A stretch of 64,000 bases of DNA, from positions 5,191,501-5,255,500 of the forward strand of contig CP033464.1 in NCBI GenBank assembly GCA_007833815.1, written 5' to 3'. Source of the DNA: Brevibacillus laterosporus (GTDB lineage: Bacteria > Bacillota > Bacilli > Brevibacillales > Brevibacillaceae). Numbering within the stretch: position 1 is the stretch's first letter; each line of letters begins with the position of its first letter. A program made the translations under genes and the position numbers. Positions 1 to 52,860 of this stretch are shown in pieces. The notes under the pieces were generated by a model that saw nothing but the letters and a program-made list of their open reading frames with translations, was not told the origin of the DNA and ran no database searches.

Positions 1-269
1 TGCATGTGAACAATATACTCATCTAATCGTTGACTCATCTCTAGCACTGCAAGGCTTGAAAAGGTACCTTCTTTGCAAACCAACTCTACCAATTTTTTTC
101 TGAGAATCTCTGTATCCGTATGTAGATCATTCTCATCTTGGCAACTTTGGATGCGTTTTGCTGATAAGGGACTAATTGATTTGATGGGGGCTGAGTATTT
201 TACTCCTGTTCTTGGCGTTCTTTTCCTATGGTAGAGTAGAACGTCCTCAACCTTTTTTAAATCCTTAAT
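1..269 (-). CDS. Spo0E-like aspartyl-phosphate phosphatase, 3' end outside window
   Basis: This small protein runs off the left edge. Its C-terminal part has the Spo0E signature: a basic helix, then KEGTFSS, then SQRLDEYIV. Spo0E-family proteins are short helical hairpins that dephosphorylate Spo0A~P and so delay sporulation; SQxLD is the active motif. No ATG, GTG or TTG lies in frame near a ribosome binding site. A very strong site (AAAGGAGGAGG, 285-275) sits 5 bases before an in-frame ATT at 269-267, which I take as the start. An N-terminal indel is the alternative. It lies on the same strand, just downstream of the receptor/peptide pair at 504-1989, an order repeated twice more in the window. 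Confidence 0.7.
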   Translation of the reverse strand, partial: MKDLKKVEDVLLYHRKRTPRTGVKYSAPIKSISPLSAKRIQSCQDENDLHTDTEILRKKLVELVCKEGTFSSLAVLEMSQRLDEYIVHM

Positions 270-355
270 ATCAACCTCCTCCTTTATGTATAAAATGTAT
301 TACTTACACTATATCTCATTATCCCAAAAAAACCATTTTGAGAAAAACTGTAAAA

Positions 356-396
356 ATCATCTATTTTAACCAAATTTTAACATTAAAATAGATGAT
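356..396. repeat. Perfect 14-bp inverted repeat
   Basis: ATCATCTATTTTAA (356-369) and its exact complement (383-396) flank a 13-base AT-rich loop. It lies between the terminator of the receptor/peptide unit and the Spo0E-like gene. There is no T-run on either side, so an operator or an mRNA structure is as likely as a terminator. Confidence 0.5.
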
Positions 397-442
397 CATT
401 GTCTTCCTCTCATTATCCACATTATCTCATTCTTTCAACCAC

Positions 443-475
443 AAAAAAAAGCACCCTTCTTTTAGAAGGTGTGCT
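443..475 (-). terminator. Rho-independent terminator of the receptor/peptide unit
   Basis: On the minus strand AGCACACCTTCT pairs with AGAAGGGTGCT around a short A-rich loop, followed directly by a run of T. It sits about 30 bases after the signal-peptide gene stop. Confidence 0.85.
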
Positions 476-503
476 CTGTAGCATTAAGGAAATGATTATT
501 TAT

Positions 504-626
504 TTAGCCACCAATCCCATGATCGTATTGAATCACTCTGTCCTTTGCCATTGCCACTTCAAAATCCATCACCTGACTACACAACCCAAAGATCATTACC
601 AGCGAAAGCAAAAAGACTTTCATCAT
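504..626 (-). CDS. Phr-like secreted signal peptide precursor, 40 aa
   Basis: This short gene starts inside the 3' end of the receptor gene (receptor stop at 577) and reads another frame, as phr genes do behind rap genes. A good binding site (GGAGG, 6-10 bases upstream) precedes an ATG ATG start. The product opens with MMKVFLLSLVMIFGLCSQV, a basic residue plus a hydrophobic stretch that fits a Sec signal. It ends in a short polar tail rich in glycine and acidic or basic residues (...RVIQYDHGIGG). In RRNPP systems the secreted tail is cut to 5-10 residues and re-imported to bind the TPR receptor. The mature peptide cannot be read off the sequence. A terminator follows at once. Confidence 0.75.
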   Translation of the reverse strand: MMKVFLLSLVMIFGLCSQVMDFEVAMAKDRVIQYDHGIGG

Positions 627-1989
627 TCCTTACCTCCTCCATTATTTTTTTATAATCCTGTTTCTGTTGCAGTGTTGCGTGGTATCTATGTGCTTCAAAA
701 AGTGTTACGCATCGTATGAAATTCTTTTGATCATTCATAGCTGTAGATAAAGCTAGGCATCGTAGAATATCGACTATCCCATTATGAAAACGTTCATTTT
801 GGAACTGATAAATAGCTAACTGATACCTAAACCGAAGATGGCGTTCTACATTAATAGTATCTTGGTATTGATCAAAGCAACGTATCTCTTCTGAAAATCT
901 CTCTAATAGGTTGTCTATCGAAAAGTCATATTTATTGGCTGATTCTACAATGGTCACTAGACCAGCAAGAATCTCCTTTGGATGTTCATCAAGGAAAGCG
1001 ATATAATCTGGAAGAATATCTGTAAGTCCCAGTAGCAAATCGAACGTATATCTATTGGCTTGGGCCCATAATCGGAATTTCTGAACCTCTTTTTGTCCTA
1101 CATCATCAAGATTTTCAAACCATCCTAAATCAGCGTAACCAGCAGCATACTCGTTTGCCTCTCTATACAAGCCTTGCTTTTCCAATGATTCCGATTTCAA
1201 TAAATAGGCCTGTCCATAATAGACAACCAAATGGCGTTCCGTTTTGAGAGGTTCACCTTTTCTATTACTTTTTTGTCTATTTTGTTCATTATCGTATACC
1301 AAAGTAACCAATTCTCTTAACTCGTCTGCGTATTTCTCTACCTCTTTCCACTTATGCAAAGTAAAGCTCACATTTGCTAGCTGTAATAATGCATCCAATT
1401 GGTAATTCTCAGAGAGTCTTTTTCGAAAAGGTTCGAATCGAATAACAGCTTTACCATTTTCCTCTGCATTGGTTCCCAGTAGTGATCGAAATAAACGATA
1501 TTGACTCATTACAGCTCGTTCTGAGTGGCTATTTCTTTCATTATCAATCACCAATTGGTAAAAATAAGCTGATTCCTTCTGTTTTCCCTTATAAAATAGC
1601 TGTTCAGCTACAGCAAAAAGAACTTCGATGTTTTTAGGATCCTCTAACAACTGAGAGATTACCAACTGAATACAGTCATGTCTACCTATTTCGGCACACT
1701 GAACAAGATACGGTCTAACTCTTCTCTTAGATACTTTTCCTCTTTGAAAGCATTCCTCTACATATAAATCATACAGCCACCCAGTAGGCTCTCCAAATGC
1801 TCGTCCAATAGCATTTAATTGATGGACAGTTAATGCTCGGATAGGATTCCCCTTCAAGAATCCGCTCAAGTGCCCGGCATTGATATTAGTCAATTCACTG
1901 AGTTTACTTAAGGTGTAGTTATATGATTTGATGCGATATTCAATTTCCGACCGTATCGATCGCACCATCACATGATTACTTCCGACCAT
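577..1989 (-). CDS. RRNPP-type peptide receptor: XRE helix-turn-helix plus TPR repeats
   Basis: Of 470 residues, the first 80 or so form a Cro/C1-like helix-turn-helix (SELTNINAGHLSGFLKG). The rest is a helical TPR array with a Rap/NprR/PlcR-like look. Such proteins bind a re-imported oligopeptide and change DNA binding or a protein partner. AAAAAGGAGTG lies five bases before the ATG. The overlapping gene at 504-626 encodes the likely cognate peptide. Just upstream, at 1990-2100, is very AT-rich DNA with repeated TGTAAAAT-like motifs that could hold the promoter and operator. A Spo0E-like gene follows downstream. Close relatives in this window are at 42751-44049 (intact) and near 51 kb (broken). 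The regulon is unknown. Confidence 0.8.
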   Translation of the reverse strand: MVGSNHVMVRSIRSEIEYRIKSYNYTLSKLSELTNINAGHLSGFLKGNPIRALTVHQLNAIGRAFGEPTGWLYDLYVEECFQRGKVSKRRVRPYLVQCAEIGRHDCIQLVISQLLEDPKNIEVLFAVAEQLFYKGKQKESAYFYQLVIDNERNSHSERAVMSQYRLFRSLLGTNAEENGKAVIRFEPFRKRLSENYQLDALLQLANVSFTLHKWKEVEKYADELRELVTLVYDNEQNRQKSNRKGEPLKTERHLVVYYGQAYLLKSESLEKQGLYREANEYAAGYADLGWFENLDDVGQKEVQKFRLWAQANRYTFDLLLGLTDILPDYIAFLDEHPKEILAGLVTIVESANKYDFSIDNLLERFSEEIRCFDQYQDTINVERHLRFRYQLAIYQFQNERFHNGIVDILRCLALSTAMNDQKNFIRCVTLFEAHRYHATLQQKQDYKKIMEEVRNDESLFAFAGNDLWVV

Positions 1990-42156: not shown

Positions 42157-42332
42157 CTAGCATCTAATCTTCTGAAACATAACGATGTACTCATCTAGTT
42201 GTTGGCTCATTTGTATTACGGTTGGGTGTAAAAATGAACCTTTTAATTGAATACAACTGTGCTAATTCTTGGCGTAGGACTTCAATAAGCTTCTGTAAAA
42301 TCATGTTCTAGTTGGGAATTTTCTGTTTTCAT
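42157..42332 (-). pseudogene. Spo0E-like protein, frameshifted
   Basis: An ATG at 42332 (MKTENSQLEHDF) soon runs into a stop. A shifted frame reads LIEVLRQELAQLY, and a further shift gives KGSF, then PTVIQMSQQLDEYIV. Together these make one Spo0E-like protein, as at 50459 and at the left edge, with two indels. It lies downstream of the second receptor/peptide unit on the same strand, with the double-hairpin leader between. Confidence 0.75.
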
Positions 42333-42358
42333 ATTCTGTAAGTGAGTGTTAAAATGGT

Positions 42359-42426
42359 CTTGAGTAACAACCTTTGTTGCTCAAGGTGGGGGTGTTCCCG
42401 TAAGTTTAGCGACAGTGGGAACGCCC
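42359..42426 (-). promoter_or_regulatory. Double-hairpin leader before a Spo0E-like gene, copy 1
   Basis: Two hairpins follow each other on the minus strand: GGGCGTTCCC/GGGAACACCC (42426-42388), then CTTGAGCAACA/TGTTACTCAAG (42385-42359). The same pair, with changed loops and paired base changes, lies before the Spo0E-like gene at 50459. An open leader frame ending GTPPP-stop is conserved in both. Confidence 0.65.
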
Positions 42427-42571
42427 TTTTGTATCATCATAAAGCAAAAGCTAATAGCAACCACCTCCCTTTTTCCTCTTATGTATTATTTTACCATTAG
42501 TTGCAGGGACTACCTTTATTTTTTTCTCGAAGAAACGCCTTTACATTTTGTTAAGAAATGCAAATTTTCAT

Positions 42572-42598
42572 AAAAAAAAGACGCTATTATGAGCGTCT
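42572..42598 (-). terminator. Terminator of the second receptor/peptide unit
   Basis: On the minus strand AGACGCT pairs with AGCGTCT, followed by eight T, 15 bases after the peptide gene stop. Confidence 0.85.
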
Positions 42599-42613
42599 GA
42601 AAGTTTCAAATAA

Positions 42614-42751
42614 TTAATGACCGGGGTCTCCTGTATATACTTTGATGTGTCCTGAAACTACTTGATTCTCGGTTTGCCTTTCTATTGAAAATAAAAACGC
42701 CAATGACAATGAGGCTAAAATTACGGATGTTGCTACTACTATCTTTTTCAT
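42614..42751 (-). CDS. Phr-like secreted signal peptide precursor, 45 aa
   Basis: The ATG overlaps the receptor stop (TAATG), so the two are translationally coupled. The product starts MKKIVVATSVILASLSLAFL, a clear Sec signal, continues with ERQTENQV and ends SGHIKVYTGDPGH. Size, layout and place behind a TPR receptor are those of Phr-type precursors. Like the first peptide (504-626) it ends in a Tyr- and Gly-containing tail. The mature form cannot be deduced. A terminator follows. Confidence 0.8.
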   Translation of the reverse strand: MKKIVVATSVILASLSLAFLFSIERQTENQVVSGHIKVYTGDPGH

Positions 42752-44049
42752 TACACTACCACCTTTTTATCATTAGACTTCTTGTTGATGACATTATAAA
42801 CCTCAACCAGCTTCCCTAAAAGGTCTAAATCAATTGGTTTTTGATATAAATAATGTATTGATAAAATTTCACCTATAGCATGATGAATATCTTCATTAGA
42901 GTTAATTTGCTCATAAGATACCACACTCCTTAAATAAGAAGATATTGCATCATTATACTTACCGATTTCGACTTGCCAAGCGCTTTTTAGTTTAAAAAAT
43001 CTTCCTATTTCTCGATGTTTATGAGGTGTATTCACACCCAAACAGATTGACTTTTCTTCTGTAGCTAATAATGTCTGTATTGATTCTAACTCTCCCAACT
43101 TAAAAAATGATTCCATCAAGTCATTTAAGATATGAACACGAGTATCATCTGTAGCCTCTAATAAACACTCTTGAAGAATTGGAATTGACTTCCCATACTC
43201 ACCTTTTCCAAAATATATGTTAGCTCTTATGAATTTAGAACGCTCCTCAATGAATGTATAGTTTAAACTTTCTGACACTTCTAAATGCTGCTCTGCGGAC
43301 TGAAAATCTCCAGTATGAATAAAAGAGTTGATCATTGCATAAATTACTCTTTGCTTAAGCGTACTTGTCCCTAAATCTGAATTGTATCCTGTTCGACCAA
43401 GTTCAATGCACCTGTCATATTTTTTTATATTATGAGCATGTAACGACATTCTAAAATAGAATGTTATCTTTTCTTCTTGGGAAAGAAAATCAACATAGTG
43501 CAGAACTTCTTCTCCTACTTTAAACGATTCTTCCAAACGTTTTAAATCTTCTCTCTCAATTAAGTATTTTTGATACAACCCTTTGGCTATGTAATAGGGT
43601 AGTCCATGCACTCTGGCGTACGCAACAATAATGGTATAAAGAGTTACCTTTGCATCGTTGTTTGTACTAGTGTTTGCAAGTGTATACAAATGGTCTAACG
43701 ATGAGCATGTTTCTTTCCTAATGTTTTCTAGGAATTTGATTGCTACTTTATTAATCAAAGAAGGATTGGAAATTTCAATAGCCTCTGATAAAAAGTCATC
43801 ATATAATCCATAACGGCGTTCTATCTGGATGCTATATTCAATTATGTCTTCATAGGGAATTTTTAAAACATCTGCGATAGGTTTCAAAGTCCTCAACTCT
43901 GGACTTTTTGTTTCACCACTTTCTATTTTAGAAATAACCCCTTTACTGATCCCAGTTATTCTGGACACTTCTGACAAACTGATGCCTATTTCCACTCTTT
44001 TTCTCTTTATCAGTTCCCCCAACGTTGTGAAAGTTAAACTTACACTCAT
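42751..44049 (-). CDS. RRNPP-type peptide receptor: XRE helix-turn-helix plus TPR repeats
   Basis: Of 432 residues, the first 70 are a clear XRE domain (LGELIKRKRVEIGISLSEVS, then GISKGVISKIESGETKSPEL). The rest is a TPR array including FYFRMSLHAHNIKKYDRCIE. Peptide-bound receptors of this kind (PlcR, NprR, AimR) switch transcription. GGAAGGGGATT precedes the ATG. The cognate peptide gene overlaps the stop, and a broken Spo0E-like gene lies beyond the terminator. The receptor remnant at 50880-51545 is a close relative: HAHNIKKY is the same in both. Confidence 0.85.
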   Translation of the reverse strand: MSVSLTFTTLGELIKRKRVEIGISLSEVSRITGISKGVISKIESGETKSPELRTLKPIADVLKIPYEDIIEYSIQIERRYGLYDDFLSEAIEISNPSLINKVAIKFLENIRKETCSSLDHLYTLANTSTNNDAKVTLYTIIVAYARVHGLPYYIAKGLYQKYLIEREDLKRLEESFKVGEEVLHYVDFLSQEEKITFYFRMSLHAHNIKKYDRCIELGRTGYNSDLGTSTLKQRVIYAMINSFIHTGDFQSAEQHLEVSESLNYTFIEERSKFIRANIYFGKGEYGKSIPILQECLLEATDDTRVHILNDLMESFFKLGELESIQTLLATEEKSICLGVNTPHKHREIGRFFKLKSAWQVEIGKYNDAISSYLRSVVSYEQINSNEDIHHAIGEILSIHYLYQKPIDLDLLGKLVEVYNVINKKSNDKKVVV

Positions 44050-47048: not shown

Positions 47049-48608
47049 TGAATCAATTTCATAAATCAGAGCCCTACGGGCCCAAGAGTTTTTGAGCATA
47101 GAAAAAGGAGTACCTCCCCAAATCTCTAATAAGTTAAGTGCGACCCAAACTTAAGAGGTGGTGGTGACTCCCAATGTCTATTATAAAACAAGGAAGCCTA
47201 TTTGATATACAGGAATTATTCGACTTAGAACCTCCCAAACGTTTTGAGGCTATTTTCTCCACTCTTGACATTGAACCGCTTCTTTTCTCTATTTCCAAAA
47301 AGTCGATCTATGGTGCTCCTACCGAGTTGAATTATGCTGCCATGCTATATTCTCTGGTCGCTCGAATCGTAGAACGAATTCCCACTGTGAAAGATTTACG
47401 AAAACGACTAAAACATGACTTTATCTTTCGAATGGAATGCGGTTTTCTGTTTTCTGACAATCTTCCTTCCGAGGCATCGTACTCTCGTCTCGTTCAGAAG
47501 CTTTCTGAAACAGCACACCTCAATAAAGTCCAAGACAAGTTACTGTTGCAAGCGATACAGGAAGGGTTCATAGGCGATGAAGCAATTGCCATCGATGCAA
47601 CCCATTTTGAATCCCGTGATCGAGGTGTGGCAAAAGAAAAAAAGACGAAACCAGAATTGAAAAAACGTGGACGTAAATCAAAAGCAGAAAAAGATATCTA
47701 CGACAAGCAAAAGCAAGAAAAGGAAGCCCAGAAGTCCTTATATGAAAAAACCATTGCAGCTCAACTGGATGTGACGTTGGAGGACCTACGGTACCAAGTT
47801 CCTATCAAACCTGCTTGGGGAATAAAGAAAAATAGTGATGGAAAGAACATGTTTTGGTTTGGATACAAAGCTCATCTTGCAGTCAGTACGAAAAGTCAAT
47901 ATATTCTTTGCTCCCTCATGTCCTCTGGAAGTATGAACGATGGGAAAGCAGCGATTCCTTTGTTGAAAGGAATTCAAACTGTCCTGCCCAATCACATGCG
48001 ATATGCAATCATGGATGCGGGATATGACTATGTCCCGATCTATCAACAAATCGGACGAATGAACGCACAAGCGATTATTGCTTACAACAAGCGGAATGAA
48101 GGAGAAATGGTTGGATTCGATTCACATTTTGCGCCAACTTGTGTCCGAGAATGCTCTTATCGTTACGACAGTTATGATAAGAAGTACAAAACGTTGAAAT
48201 TTGTACGGCCAAAAGAATGTAAAGACTGTCCATTGAATCAGGATTCTCTCTGTCAAAAAGTCTATAAAATTAAGGCTGAAACCGATCTTCGAAAGTACAC
48301 CGCGCCAGCCAGAGGAACAAAAACGTGGGAAGAACTATATGACCAGAGAACAGCCGTAGAGCGAGTACATGCTTATTTGAAGGAGTTCTTTCAGCTAAAC
48401 AATGTCCGATATCGCACAGGAAAGAGGGCAAAAGTCCATTTTGACTTGGTTACTCTTGTTTATAATGCATCCAAGTTAGCAGTGGATCGAATTCGTAGGA
48501 ACTGGCAAGTAGGATGAAAGTAGCAGCTTAATTTTTTCAAAAAAACAGCATTAATCCCGTAGGGATAGTCTAATTATTTTTGGAAAAAGCCTTTATGAAA
48601 TTGATTCA
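47049..48608 (+). mobile_element. Insertion sequence with perfect 17-bp terminal inverted repeats
   Basis: TGAATCAATTTCATAAA (47049-47065) recurs as its exact complement at 48592-48608. The single transposase gene inside is intact. A clear target-site duplication is not evident from the flanks. The element separates selO from the 3' repeat copy B. Confidence 0.8.
47174..48517 (+). CDS. DDE transposase (IS1182-like)
   Basis: This 447-residue transposase is full length and uninterrupted. An N-terminal helical domain is followed by the DDE/RNase H catalytic core: the first Asp is in AIDATHFESRD, a second in AIMDAGYDYVP and the Glu in RTAVERVHAYLKE. A Lys-rich insert follows the first Asp. CKDCPLNQDSLC is a zinc-finger-like Cys cluster. 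AGAGGTGGTGG lies ahead of the ATG. Assignment to IS1182 rather than a related DDE family is from general appearance. This is the only transposase in the window that looks active. Confidence 0.85.
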   Translation: MSIIKQGSLFDIQELFDLEPPKRFEAIFSTLDIEPLLFSISKKSIYGAPTELNYAAMLYSLVARIVERIPTVKDLRKRLKHDFIFRMECGFLFSDNLPSEASYSRLVQKLSETAHLNKVQDKLLLQAIQEGFIGDEAIAIDATHFESRDRGVAKEKKTKPELKKRGRKSKAEKDIYDKQKQEKEAQKSLYEKTIAAQLDVTLEDLRYQVPIKPAWGIKKNSDGKNMFWFGYKAHLAVSTKSQYILCSLMSSGSMNDGKAAIPLLKGIQTVLPNHMRYAIMDAGYDYVPIYQQIGRMNAQAIIAYNKRNEGEMVGFDSHFAPTCVRECSYRYDSYDKKYKTLKFVRPKECKDCPLNQDSLCQKVYKIKAETDLRKYTAPARGTKTWEELYDQRTAVERVHAYLKEFFQLNNVRYRTGKRAKVHFDLVTLVYNASKLAVDRIRRNWQVG

Positions 48609-50458: not shown

Positions 50459-50686
50459 TTAATGTTTTGTAAGCTTTTGAAAGGCAACAATAGACTCATC
50501 TAGTTGTTGACTCATCTGTAATACTGTTGGACTTGAAAACGAACCTTCTTTACAATACAACTGCTCTAATTCTTGACGGAGGCGTTTAATAATCTTCTTA
50601 AATCGTTTGTTAATCTGAAACTTTCTACTTTCTTCACTTGTAAGTGAGTGGTAAATTAAACTTGAGAAACATTTTTTGTTCCTCAA
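50459..50686 (-). CDS. Spo0E-like aspartyl-phosphate phosphatase
   Basis: The 75-codon frame contains the full Spo0E hairpin: KIIKRLRQELEQLYCKEGSF, then PTVLQMSQQLDESIVAFQKL with the SQxLD motif. The family hydrolyses Spo0A~P. The only start codon at the frame end is a TTG in the second leader hairpin, overlapping the stop of the conserved leader frame (TTGA). The Spo0E core begins about 25 residues later without a better start. It follows the broken receptor at 50880-51545 on the same strand, as the other two Spo0E-like genes follow receptor/peptide units. Confidence 0.75.
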   Translation of the reverse strand: MRNKKCFSSLIYHSLTSEESRKFQINKRFKKIIKRLRQELEQLYCKEGSFSSPTVLQMSQQLDESIVAFQKLTKH

Positions 50687-50728
50687 GGTGGGGGCGTTCC
50701 GATGGTGTGCAAACTAATGGGAACGCTC
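50661..50728 (-). promoter_or_regulatory. Double-hairpin leader before a Spo0E-like gene, copy 2
   Basis: Hairpin one pairs GAGCGTTCC with GGAACGCCC (50728-50690); hairpin two pairs CTTGAGGAACA with TGTTTCTCAAG (50687-50661). A short leader frame ends in GTPPP-stop as in copy 1. Upstream, TGGTAAAATATTACATAGGAGG also matches copy 1 (TGGTAAAATAATACATAAGAGG in part). Confidence 0.65.
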
Positions 50729-50879
50729 CTTTTAGTTAACAAATCATATAATCCGAAGATGATACCCCGTCCCTTCCTCCTATGTAATATTTTACCAATC
50801 GTATTGTTTTTTTCTGCAAAATAAAAAAAATCGAAACGTTCAACAAAATTTTACAAATTATTACATAATCCGCACTTTG

Positions 50880-51545
50880 TTATAAATAAAAAGGACACCA
50901 CTCTTTTAAAAAGTGTGGCGTCCACTGAAAAATTCCAGATGAAATGAAAAATTCCAGATGAAATGAAAAATGGTTTTCCTCAGACTGTATTATTTCTCTG
51001 ATTAGTTCGATATTTCTTGCTTTAGATAGAGCTTCTAACAGCCTGTTTAATCGATACAAGCGTCTAATGCCTTTAACCTCTTCTAAACATACCTGCAACA
51101 AAGGAATGGCTTTTTCATAATCACCTCTTTGTGAAAGAATAATCGCTCGATAATAATTTATACATTCAATAATAAAACGATATTCCTTTTTTTCACATTC
51201 ATCTAAATGTGAACGCAGACTAATATGGTCTTCAAGTTCTGCGTAAGAGTTACACATTGCCAATGCTACACTTTCTTTAAGATCATTATTTTCGTTTTAT
51301 CCTCATTCATCCCCGTTTGACCTAATTTAATACACTTTTCATACTTTTTAATATTATGTGCGTGAAGTGCCATGCGATAATAAAAAGTTATCTGTTCTTC
51401 GAGGGATAAAAAGTCAACATAGTAGGCTATTTCTTCTCCGTCTCTCAAAAGATGATGGCATCTATTATCGTAACGTAAAATTCTTCATCTATGGCGGAGC
51501 TATTGAAGTGTTCAGCCTCGGATAGATATTTGAGGGTAGGGTGTG
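50880..51545 (-). pseudogene. RRNPP-type receptor, broken (no helix-turn-helix, frameshifts)
   Basis: Pieces in three frames match the TPR part of the intact receptor at 42751: LKYLSEAEHFNSSAIDEEFY, then YYVDFLSLEEQITFYYRMAL and HAHNIKKYEKCIKLGQTG, then YEKAIPLLQVCLEEVKG. The DNA-binding domain is missing and a short direct duplication (TCATTTCATCTGGAATTTT, about 50941-50975) damages the 3' end. No peptide gene remains. A Spo0E-like gene lies downstream. Confidence 0.8.
50884..50923 (-). terminator. Terminator at the end of the broken receptor
   Basis: On the minus strand GGACGCCACACTT pairs with AGAGTGGTGTCC, followed by TTTTTATTT. It lies where a peptide gene would be expected, so the 3' end of this unit has been lost. 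Confidence 0.75.
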
Positions 51546-52385: not shown

Positions 52386-52412
52386 GAAAAAGCCATCCAT
52401 GTAGGATAGCTT
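52386..52412 (-). terminator. Terminator of the recombinase remnant
   Basis: On the minus strand AAGCTATCC pairs with GGATGGCT followed by TTTTCTGTTT, directly at the recombinase stop. Confidence 0.65.
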
Positions 52413-52860
52413 ACTTTATAAACAAATTCTCAACCGCTCTTTTTCTGTCTTCTTCTGTTGGCTTGCTATAGCGTAACACCATATCCGCTGACTTATGACC
52501 GCTCAATGATTTAATAACATCTATATCCTGATTGTCTCTTATCAATGCTGTAAAAATACGTTGTTGTCGATTACTTAGAAATAATGCATCGTTACTGTCA
52601 GATCGTTCCTCTACGTATCTATTTATTGCCCTTCTTACTTCTGCATTCAGCGGAATTGCTCTTTCTTTGTTGCCCTTCCCTGTTCTTACCGTTCGTTCTC
52701 CTTTACGTTCACTACTTTCAACGTCTGATTGATCAAGATTGACAAGTTCACTTACTCGTAATCCTGTGTACAGCAGAGTTACCACAATTGCAAAATCCCG
52801 CTTGTTTCCTGTCCTTTCTATTTCTCTCATTAACTTATTGTATTCGTTCCTATCCAATGC
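52411..52860 (-). pseudogene. Tyrosine recombinase, N-terminally truncated with internal deletion
   Basis: The catalytic domain keeps the first Arg (TLLYTGLRVSELVNL), the Lys (TGKGNKERAIPL) and the late motif SLSGHKSADMVLRYSKP with the final Tyr. The HxxR box that should lie after LFLSNRQQR is missing, as LFLSNRQQR runs straight into FTALIRDNQDI. The N-terminal DNA-binding domain is cut to a few residues (ALDRNEYNKL). It cannot be catalytic. XerC/D- or phage-integrase-like; it probably once mobilised this island. Confidence 0.75.

Follow-up and report, generated by a model that had tools for sequence, protein, structure and literature searches.

The stretch of DNA considered here (the window) comprises 64,000 nucleotides of Brevibacillus laterosporus contig CP033464.1 (positions 5,191,501 to 5,255,500, or G000:C4:5191501-5255500 in the coordinates used below) within a genome of 5.76 Mb (G000), and at its left edge it holds a receptor gene, an overlapping secreted-peptide gene and a Spo0E-like phosphatase gene in a row at 1..1989. 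As in the other two cassettes of the window, every feature of this first cassette lies on the minus strand. The receptor gene (577..1989) encodes a 470-aa protein, representative of what is here called family A (AloR13-like), with helix-turn-helix (HTH)-like helices at the N-terminus and a superhelix resembling tetratricopeptide repeats (TPR) at the C-terminus. The end of this gene overlaps a short open reading frame (ORF) that directly follows it (504..626) and encodes an AloP-like secreted pro-peptide of 40 aa, which has a hydrophobic N-terminus and ends in YDHGIGG. A terminator-like hairpin with a T-run, recognized by eye, lies 3' of the peptide gene at 443..475, and further on are found a strong Shine-Dalgarno (SD) sequence of spo0E, AAGGAGGAGG (275..284; anti-SD duplex -13.1 kcal/mol), a putative ATT start codon (267..269) and a weak dyad in the spo0E leader (213..246; arms 238-246 and 213-221, 16-nt loop, coordinates read from the sequence). 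The phosphatase gene itself (1..269) carries an N-terminal extension of about 55 residues, and in-frame ATG, GTG and TTG codons are absent between the preceding stop and the Spo0E core. Its PF09388 match (C4:5191497-5191610; 33.7 bits, cut-off 23) runs from window position 110 to -3, so that the gene leaves the window at the left edge, ending near -27. The window copy contains SQRLD and many others SQQLD, both of which fit S-x-x-L-D, the signature of Spo0E-like phosphatases.

Cassette 2 consists of a receptor gene (42751..44049) for a 432-aa protein of a second family, here called B (XRE-type HTH plus TPR-like), a pro-peptide gene (42614..42751; 45 aa, ending in TGDPGH), a leader dyad GGGCGTTCC-N19-GGAACACCC (42390..42426) and a frame-shifted spo0E (42157..42310), the N- and C-terminal halves of which lie in separate frames and whose match covers only profile positions 15-42. 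Cassette 3 retains two remnants of a family B receptor (50967..51463; fragments 51281-51463 and 50967-51290), a leader dyad with one mismatch (50692..50728; C4:5242192-5242228) and a Spo0E-like ORF (50459..50686; 42.1 bits); neither of the two small hydrophobic ORFs (24 and 36 aa) that follow the receptor remnants resembles the other peptides, and the peptide gene has apparently been lost. A transposase-like ORF (47174-48517) and a tyrosine-integrase-like ORF (52411-52857) were recognized by eye in the vicinity of cassettes 2 and 3. The original prediction, drawn from the letters alone, had described the row at 1..1989, which the ORFs and the PF09388 match bear out, and had regarded 42157-44049 and 50459-51545 as further copies of the same cassette; the recurrence holds, with Spo0E split in the former and the receptor broken and the peptide apparently lost in the latter, but these are not copies of one cassette, as the first carries a family A receptor and the other two belong to family B.

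The same gene order extends well beyond the window. The genome contains 24 PF09388 Spo0E-like matches, all above the cut-off, and 16 of these sit 368-1107 bp downstream of a receptor match on the same strand, the receptors being 12 of family B (368-502 bp), three of family A (415, 470 and 1107 bp) and one divergent (983 bp). The remaining eight comprise, as judged by eye, two with cassette-type leaders and displaced receptors (C1:44297 and C4:283203), two fragments or fusions, and four apparently stand-alone chromosomal genes. Among 40 genomes of the family, 55 of the 150 Spo0E matches listed have, on their own strand and no more than 1200 bp upstream, one of the 178 receptors entered in the count (76 of family A and 102 of family B, weaker matches being excluded), corresponding to at least 31 of the former and at least 24 of the latter. 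Chance would yield about 0.1, the opposite strand gave 0 and the upstream side 10 (A) and 1 (B). The receptor-spo0E order is not a product of chance, and the neighbourhood that had been anticipated in related genomes, with spo0E just downstream of receptor genes, is indeed there.

Comparison with Paenibacillus loci L208 and L209, located through a DNA pattern derived from primer sequences given in PMC7425212, links family A to a characterised system. The peptide at L209 (P. brasilensis) ends in SHGRGG, which is the mature AloP13 peptide, and that at L208 (P. ottowii) in HGNGH; the window peptide shares the H-G-x-G-G end with the AloP13-type SHGRGG. Along 420 residues (45-463 of the window protein), the family A receptor of the window shares 46% identity (E 1e-138) with the L209 receptor, the ORF of which, as cut, lacks its N-terminal part, and on sequence family A is classed as an AloR homologue of AloR13-like type. 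Family B reached only 23% identity over 83 residues (E 0.079) against the same receptor by BLASTP and is therefore not filed as AloR, and profile comparison of A versus B (probability 84, 16% identity) suggests a weak relationship. Four family A peptides beside close paralogs end in HGIGG or HGVGG; those of family B end mostly in DPGH or DPGY. AlphaFold models of the two receptors (mean predicted local distance difference test scores 87.5 for A and 83.5 for B) are all helical, with an N-terminal bundle of HTH size and a TPR-like superhelix. Structural comparison by VIA-align returned NprR, RapI and AimR, with LGN and other TPR proteins ranking above them, so the predicted fold agrees with RRNPP membership without proving it. 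For receptor A, no Pfam TPR model scored above its cut-off, and a sequence search of PDB returned nothing credible (best E 0.048, a nuclease).

The central idea that such a receptor controls spo0E has already been published. Passages of PMC7425212 (2020) describe Alo receptors in Paenibacillaceae, name Brevibacillus as a carrier and report that 6 Alo systems of P. polymyxa and 12 of P. terrae have spo0E as their immediate downstream neighbour. It is reported there, on the basis of RNA sequencing, reverse-transcription quantitative PCR and a GFP reporter in B. subtilis, that the AloP13 peptide cuts spo0E mRNA 4.5-fold, that AloR13 activates the spo0E promoter and that AloP13 (SHGRGG) shuts the reporter off; the same passages show peptide secretion, processing and transcription change for P. 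polymyxa and state that the phenotype remains to be elucidated. The remark in the original prediction that studies of RRNPP receptors usually consider no partner other than the peptide overlooks this work, and the prediction's proposal that the peptide controls phosphatase expression is upheld for the closest characterised relative, AloR13, its onward step to sporulation entry being one that we infer in every system considered. The window cassette resembles Alo13 in its HTH-TPR receptor, in its overlapping or adjacent secreted pro-peptide with the H-G-x-G-G end, in the spo0E gene directly downstream and in the many paralogous receptors per genome; it differs in the extended spo0E, in the leader dyad and in the frequent lack of a clear canonical start. 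From homology and gene order, we infer receptor and peptide control of the spo0E promoter in the window genome, and this first part of the reading, cassette and promoter control, is regarded as highly probable. In such a scheme, the peptide-free receptor would activate a promoter between aloP and spo0E, so that Spo0E is made and Spo0A~P stays low, while the pro-peptide would be exported, cut to a short C-terminal peptide with the H-G-I-G-G end and re-imported upon accumulation. Binding of this peptide to the TPR-like domain would end activation of spo0E, Spo0E would fall, Spo0A~P would rise and the block on Spo0A would be lifted at high density. As in the Rap-Phr systems of Bacillus, a secreted peptide would thereby tune the flow to Spo0A, with the difference that Rap is itself a phosphatase, whereas the receptor is here a predicted DNA-binding regulator of a phosphatase gene.

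Other published systems bear on family B and on mobile carriers. Passages of PMC10075063 mention a plasmid of B. laterosporus LMG 15441 on which a single AloR system is accompanied by a single 'cluster 8' system, and this fits plasmid pBRLA33 of that strain (G003 in our set), which holds one receptor of each family, so that family B is probably the 'cluster 8' of RRNPP_detector. Both are found in Paenibacillaceae, and on chromosomes, plasmids and phages; what is added here is a count of the family B-spo0E link and a description of the leader. The same passages describe phage RRNPP systems adjoining spo0E or abrB, which share the receptor-peptide-spo0E order on phages and prophages, the difference being that the present copies are numerous and mostly chromosomal. 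Spo0E in phage SecTim467 appears in passages of PMC4909266, and the available passages of PMC9765709 make no mention of Spo0E.

Receptor-spo0E cassettes were located on the phages Sundance and SecTim467 and on plasmids pBRLA07, pAZOBL1 and CP139434, and both receptor families occur on phages and IMG/VR contigs (L128, L129; L248-L254), with Spo0E at most 1 kb from the receptor at six of seven IMG/VR loci (L248 is without it; L253 is Sundance). In SecTim467, a family A receptor follows the Spo0E gene and an apparent family B receptor, recognized by eye, precedes it. Receptors or Spo0E of the Brevibacillus type are also encoded on plasmids CP062263.1 and CP062264.1 (L133), which are deposited as 'Brevibacterium sp. 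JNUCC-42' (Actinomycetota); CP062263 falls in one replicon cluster with B. laterosporus pBRLA07, and the organism is probably misnamed. These carriers, together with a cassette copy number that varies strongly between relatives and the several broken copies in the window genome, would suit a different view, in which the receptor controls other genes and spo0E is cargo by which mobile cassettes delay host sporulation, a form of phage or plasmid hijacking. This view is possible though doubtful, as the spacing is kept in both receptor families, the leader dyad recurs in many copies and an upstream motif of the family B cassettes, TATTTTGTCGNAATTTGNANAACGTTTC, matched spo0E promoters at 6/6 places in the genome (at most 3 mismatches; control 0), the motif having been derived from the same copies that it matched. 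The cargo view also speaks more to who benefits than to how the switch works. The motif lies upstream of an extended -10-like TGGTAAAAT (C4:292370-292397 and five other places) and is a candidate receptor operator; an upstream operator with further targets was considered and rejected on the same spo0E-only matches, with the same reservation as to derivation.

Beyond the probable promoter control by the receptor, many cassettes of both receptor families have in common a spo0E leader, which extends from the terminator of the peptide gene to the Spo0E core, and this shared leader is new here; the listings of searches in an open-licence library included none that dealt with a spo0E leader or with spo0E starts other than AUG. 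The hallmark of the leader is a dyad, GGGCGTTCC-N19-GGAACGCCC, with 9-bp arms, mostly 33-44 nt after the SD. In the window genome, 12 places match the dyad (at most 3 mismatches; control 0) and all of them precede a Spo0E match, the weak dyad of cassette 1 lying outside these, and in 21 of the 40 family genomes (at most 2 mismatches), where a reversed control gave single matches in 8 genomes. Among the 23 distinct arm pairs with at least 7/9 paired, the type of base pair varies at several positions, with two or three types at each (CG/TA at position 4; GC/AT/GT at position 5), and A-C mismatches occur too; up to five of these 23 are doubtful, namely L199, L129, L159, L160 and C4:1255510, which passed and are probably not the leader dyad. 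Arms were misplaced for L195, L197, L198, L199 and L201, all of which except L199 scored below 7/9 with the arms so placed and went uncounted. RNA folding beat shuffled sequences in three of the five leaders folded (z -4.41, -3.63 and -3.95). The leader is not universal: the dyad is absent in the L152 and L172 groups of family A and, judged by pairing at only 4-7 of 9 positions, also in L187 and L189-L193, which are six family B cassettes from other genera; L188, which follows a family B receptor, has it. Rfam gave no match at the gathering threshold over the window and two unrelated weak matches in five loci, and a known RNA family was rejected for the leader on that ground. The folds of L156 and L249, from family A cassettes of other species, show an outer stem that encloses the start codon; by eye it is mismatched in L169-L171, and it is not claimed.

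The regularity of the dyad could also be taken to mean that it is a DNA operator of the receptor instead of an RNA hairpin. The spacer is exactly 19 nt in 34 of the 40 dyad copies with 8-9 of 9 positions paired (three misassigned entries being omitted), and the operator of AimR likewise has a long spacer. However, the two receptor families are only weakly related and yet have the dyad in common, it is located some 40 nt past the SD in a leader that is transcribed and mostly open, and the six exceptions have spacers of 16 nt (four copies, off by one codon), 20 nt (C1:44297) and 18 nt (L182, with a broken leader frame), which makes an operator improbable.

Translation initiation at this hairpin-bearing leader appears unusual. 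In 40 family A-type leaders read by eye (including L188 and C1:44297, the latter without an upstream family A receptor), the expected start site holds ATA, ATT or ATC in 22, TTG in 10 and GTG in one, with ATG there or nearby in three and four unplaced; the leaders are not independent, the ATA copies representing about three related groups. A GGAGG core precedes the ATA/ATT/ATC codon in 16/22 and is weaker in six. An in-frame GTG overlapping or abutting the SD is present in 16 of the 22, and in these leaders it is judged unlikely to be the real start; IMG/VR copy L249 has GCG at that place and retains ATA. For the other six, a canonical codon lies in frame upstream of the SD in C3 and C4:1255510, an ATG or GTG further in occurs in L131 and L122, and in the window and L133 no canonical codon precedes the Spo0E core; the annotated start of L133 is a different codon, ATA, from the ATC proposed here. 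The window spo0E and its ortholog in the close relative G005 both retain the SD and ATT, and their differences by codon position are 4/8/24 over the first 57 codons (p=4e-5) and 4/1/16 over the rest. A start of the window spo0E at ATT is somewhat favoured. Genes of the infC type initiate at AUU; the likeness is that AUU, AUA or AUC replaces AUG after an SD, and the difference is that a quorum-controlled gene family is concerned here and not an initiation factor.

In family B, the leader contains an ORF, typically ISVC...GVPxVAKLTGTPPP, that mostly stops before Spo0E. The stop is TGA in 18/19 copies compared and TAA in the remaining one, Sundance, and also in L199; by eye, the last three residues are PPP in 13/19 and otherwise variable, and a second hairpin with paired changes, TGAGNAAC...GTTNCTCA, starts at the leader stop. 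Spo0E has its own ATG or GTG after the leader in Sundance and in six of seven copies from the close relatives G003 and G004 (L179-L183 and L185; L184 is shifted). At that codon, the window genome has AAG in five copies, GGG in one and a deletion in one; in 6/7 of these a canonical codon is absent between the preceding in-frame stop and the domain (C4:434453, with AAG, has a TTG), and 6/7 are open in frame back to the TGA (C4:1972419 is interrupted by TAG). IMG/VR contig L254 shows the same AAG form. Readthrough, reinitiation, an internal near-cognate start or loss of function are all possible in the start-less copies. UGA readthrough or selenocysteine as a general rule of the family is contradicted by the two TAA stops and by Sundance, L182 and L183, where leader and Spo0E do not share a frame, and on these grounds a small ORF of its own is the better reading of the leader. 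Nor is this ORF conserved in all copies, since stops occur in L183 and L182, L186 and L195 are shifted, and pooled differences by position are only 1327/1224/1510.

The missing starts raise the possibility that the window spo0E and the start-less family B copies are decaying and that only the receptor-peptide pair is functional. The window locus itself gives some substance to this: receptor and peptide ending in YDHGIGG are kept in G003, G004 and G005, and spo0E is kept in G005 only, one of these three close relatives; no canonical in-frame start is available, cassettes 2 and 3 are visibly broken, and the TAG in C4:1972419 adds to the damage. On the other hand, the divergence of the window gene from its G005 ortholog is third-position biased in both segments, ATA, ATT or ATC stands at the start place in several lineages with ATG there in L188, and the start-less family B form recurs in L254. 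Decay is accordingly held to be improbable.

Taken as a whole, the reading in which a peptide quorum-sensing cassette of the Alo13 type governs a gene for a Spo0A~P phosphatase, leader layer included, is given a probability of about 0.7. In this second layer, a strong SD, a near-cognate ATT start and a downstream hairpin on the spo0E mRNA would keep the Spo0E yield low; such a throttle on translation is a tentative proposal. Equally speculative is the wider idea of a portable leader, common to the two receptor families, that would act as a second, translational gate on the peptide switch. Spo0E translation would then start at AUU, AUC or AUA after the SD and proceed through the conserved hairpin, preceded in family B by an upstream ORF that often ends in Pro-Pro-Pro and a stop, in frame with Spo0E, several copies being start-less; initiator-codon discrimination, proline stalling, reinitiation or stop readthrough are candidate gates on the Spo0E dose.

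A number of observations weigh against the cassette-and-leader reading. Receptor A scores only 15.0 bits against Pfam HTH_3, below the curated cut-off of 23. Within the window genome, the family A receptors C4:5172974, C4:280273 and C4:1257746 are without a downstream Spo0E, as are six stop-free family B receptor ORFs of 404-489 aa (C4:2092689, C1:40485, C4:868766, C4:5174793, C4:5088235 and C2:1241), and both families include several receptors that are paired with a peptide gene but lack Spo0E, which means that spo0E is not the sole possible target. In G003 and G004, a transposase-like ORF replaces spo0E next to the receptor and peptide (L204, L205; by eye). Regarding the leader, the cassette 1 dyad pairs at 7/9, two window leaders do not fold clearly better than shuffles (z -1.24 for cassette 1 and -1.52), and the Alo13-type spo0E genes of P. 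ottowii and P. brasilensis start with GTG right after the SD and have no leader. Codon 23 of the G005 ortholog is a GTG in frame, before which the differences are 3/1/7, a small sample, and the pooled third-position bias of family A is weak, with N-terminal counts of 139/152/170, 65/80/92 and 99/76/125 in three groups and a clear bias in the TTG group alone (39/90/141).

Further receptor arrangements were encountered along the way. At C4:5172974-5176037, a family B receptor is followed by a family A receptor on the same strand, each with its own peptide gene and neither with Spo0E, and pBRLA33 holds a matching pair. A third, divergent receptor type (L087, around C4:2100304-2102095, together with L255, L256 and L257) has Spo0E downstream and an overlapping gene for a long pro-peptide, with NGAKP after the signal and CDNGARP close to the C-terminal end; all three genes are present in 4/4 genomes checked, and the copy in the window genome is not among the leader-dyad places. 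Two more receptors of this sort, at C4:1605468 and C4:1880141, have peptides ending in SVGEGW and SFGEGW and no Spo0E nearby; DNA resembling the region downstream of spo0E recurs 1.1-1.3 kb downstream of both.

This one genome holds about sixteen cassettes of receptor and spo0E, with three receptor types represented and a number of the cassettes broken, and Brevibacillus is therefore suited to asking how many parallel peptide signals feed sporulation entry. A low yield per Spo0E copy would matter in a genome with 24 Spo0E-like matches. If the proposal for the leader is true, it would represent a rare family-wide use of AUU, AUC and AUA starts and would account for the divergent annotated starts of these small genes.

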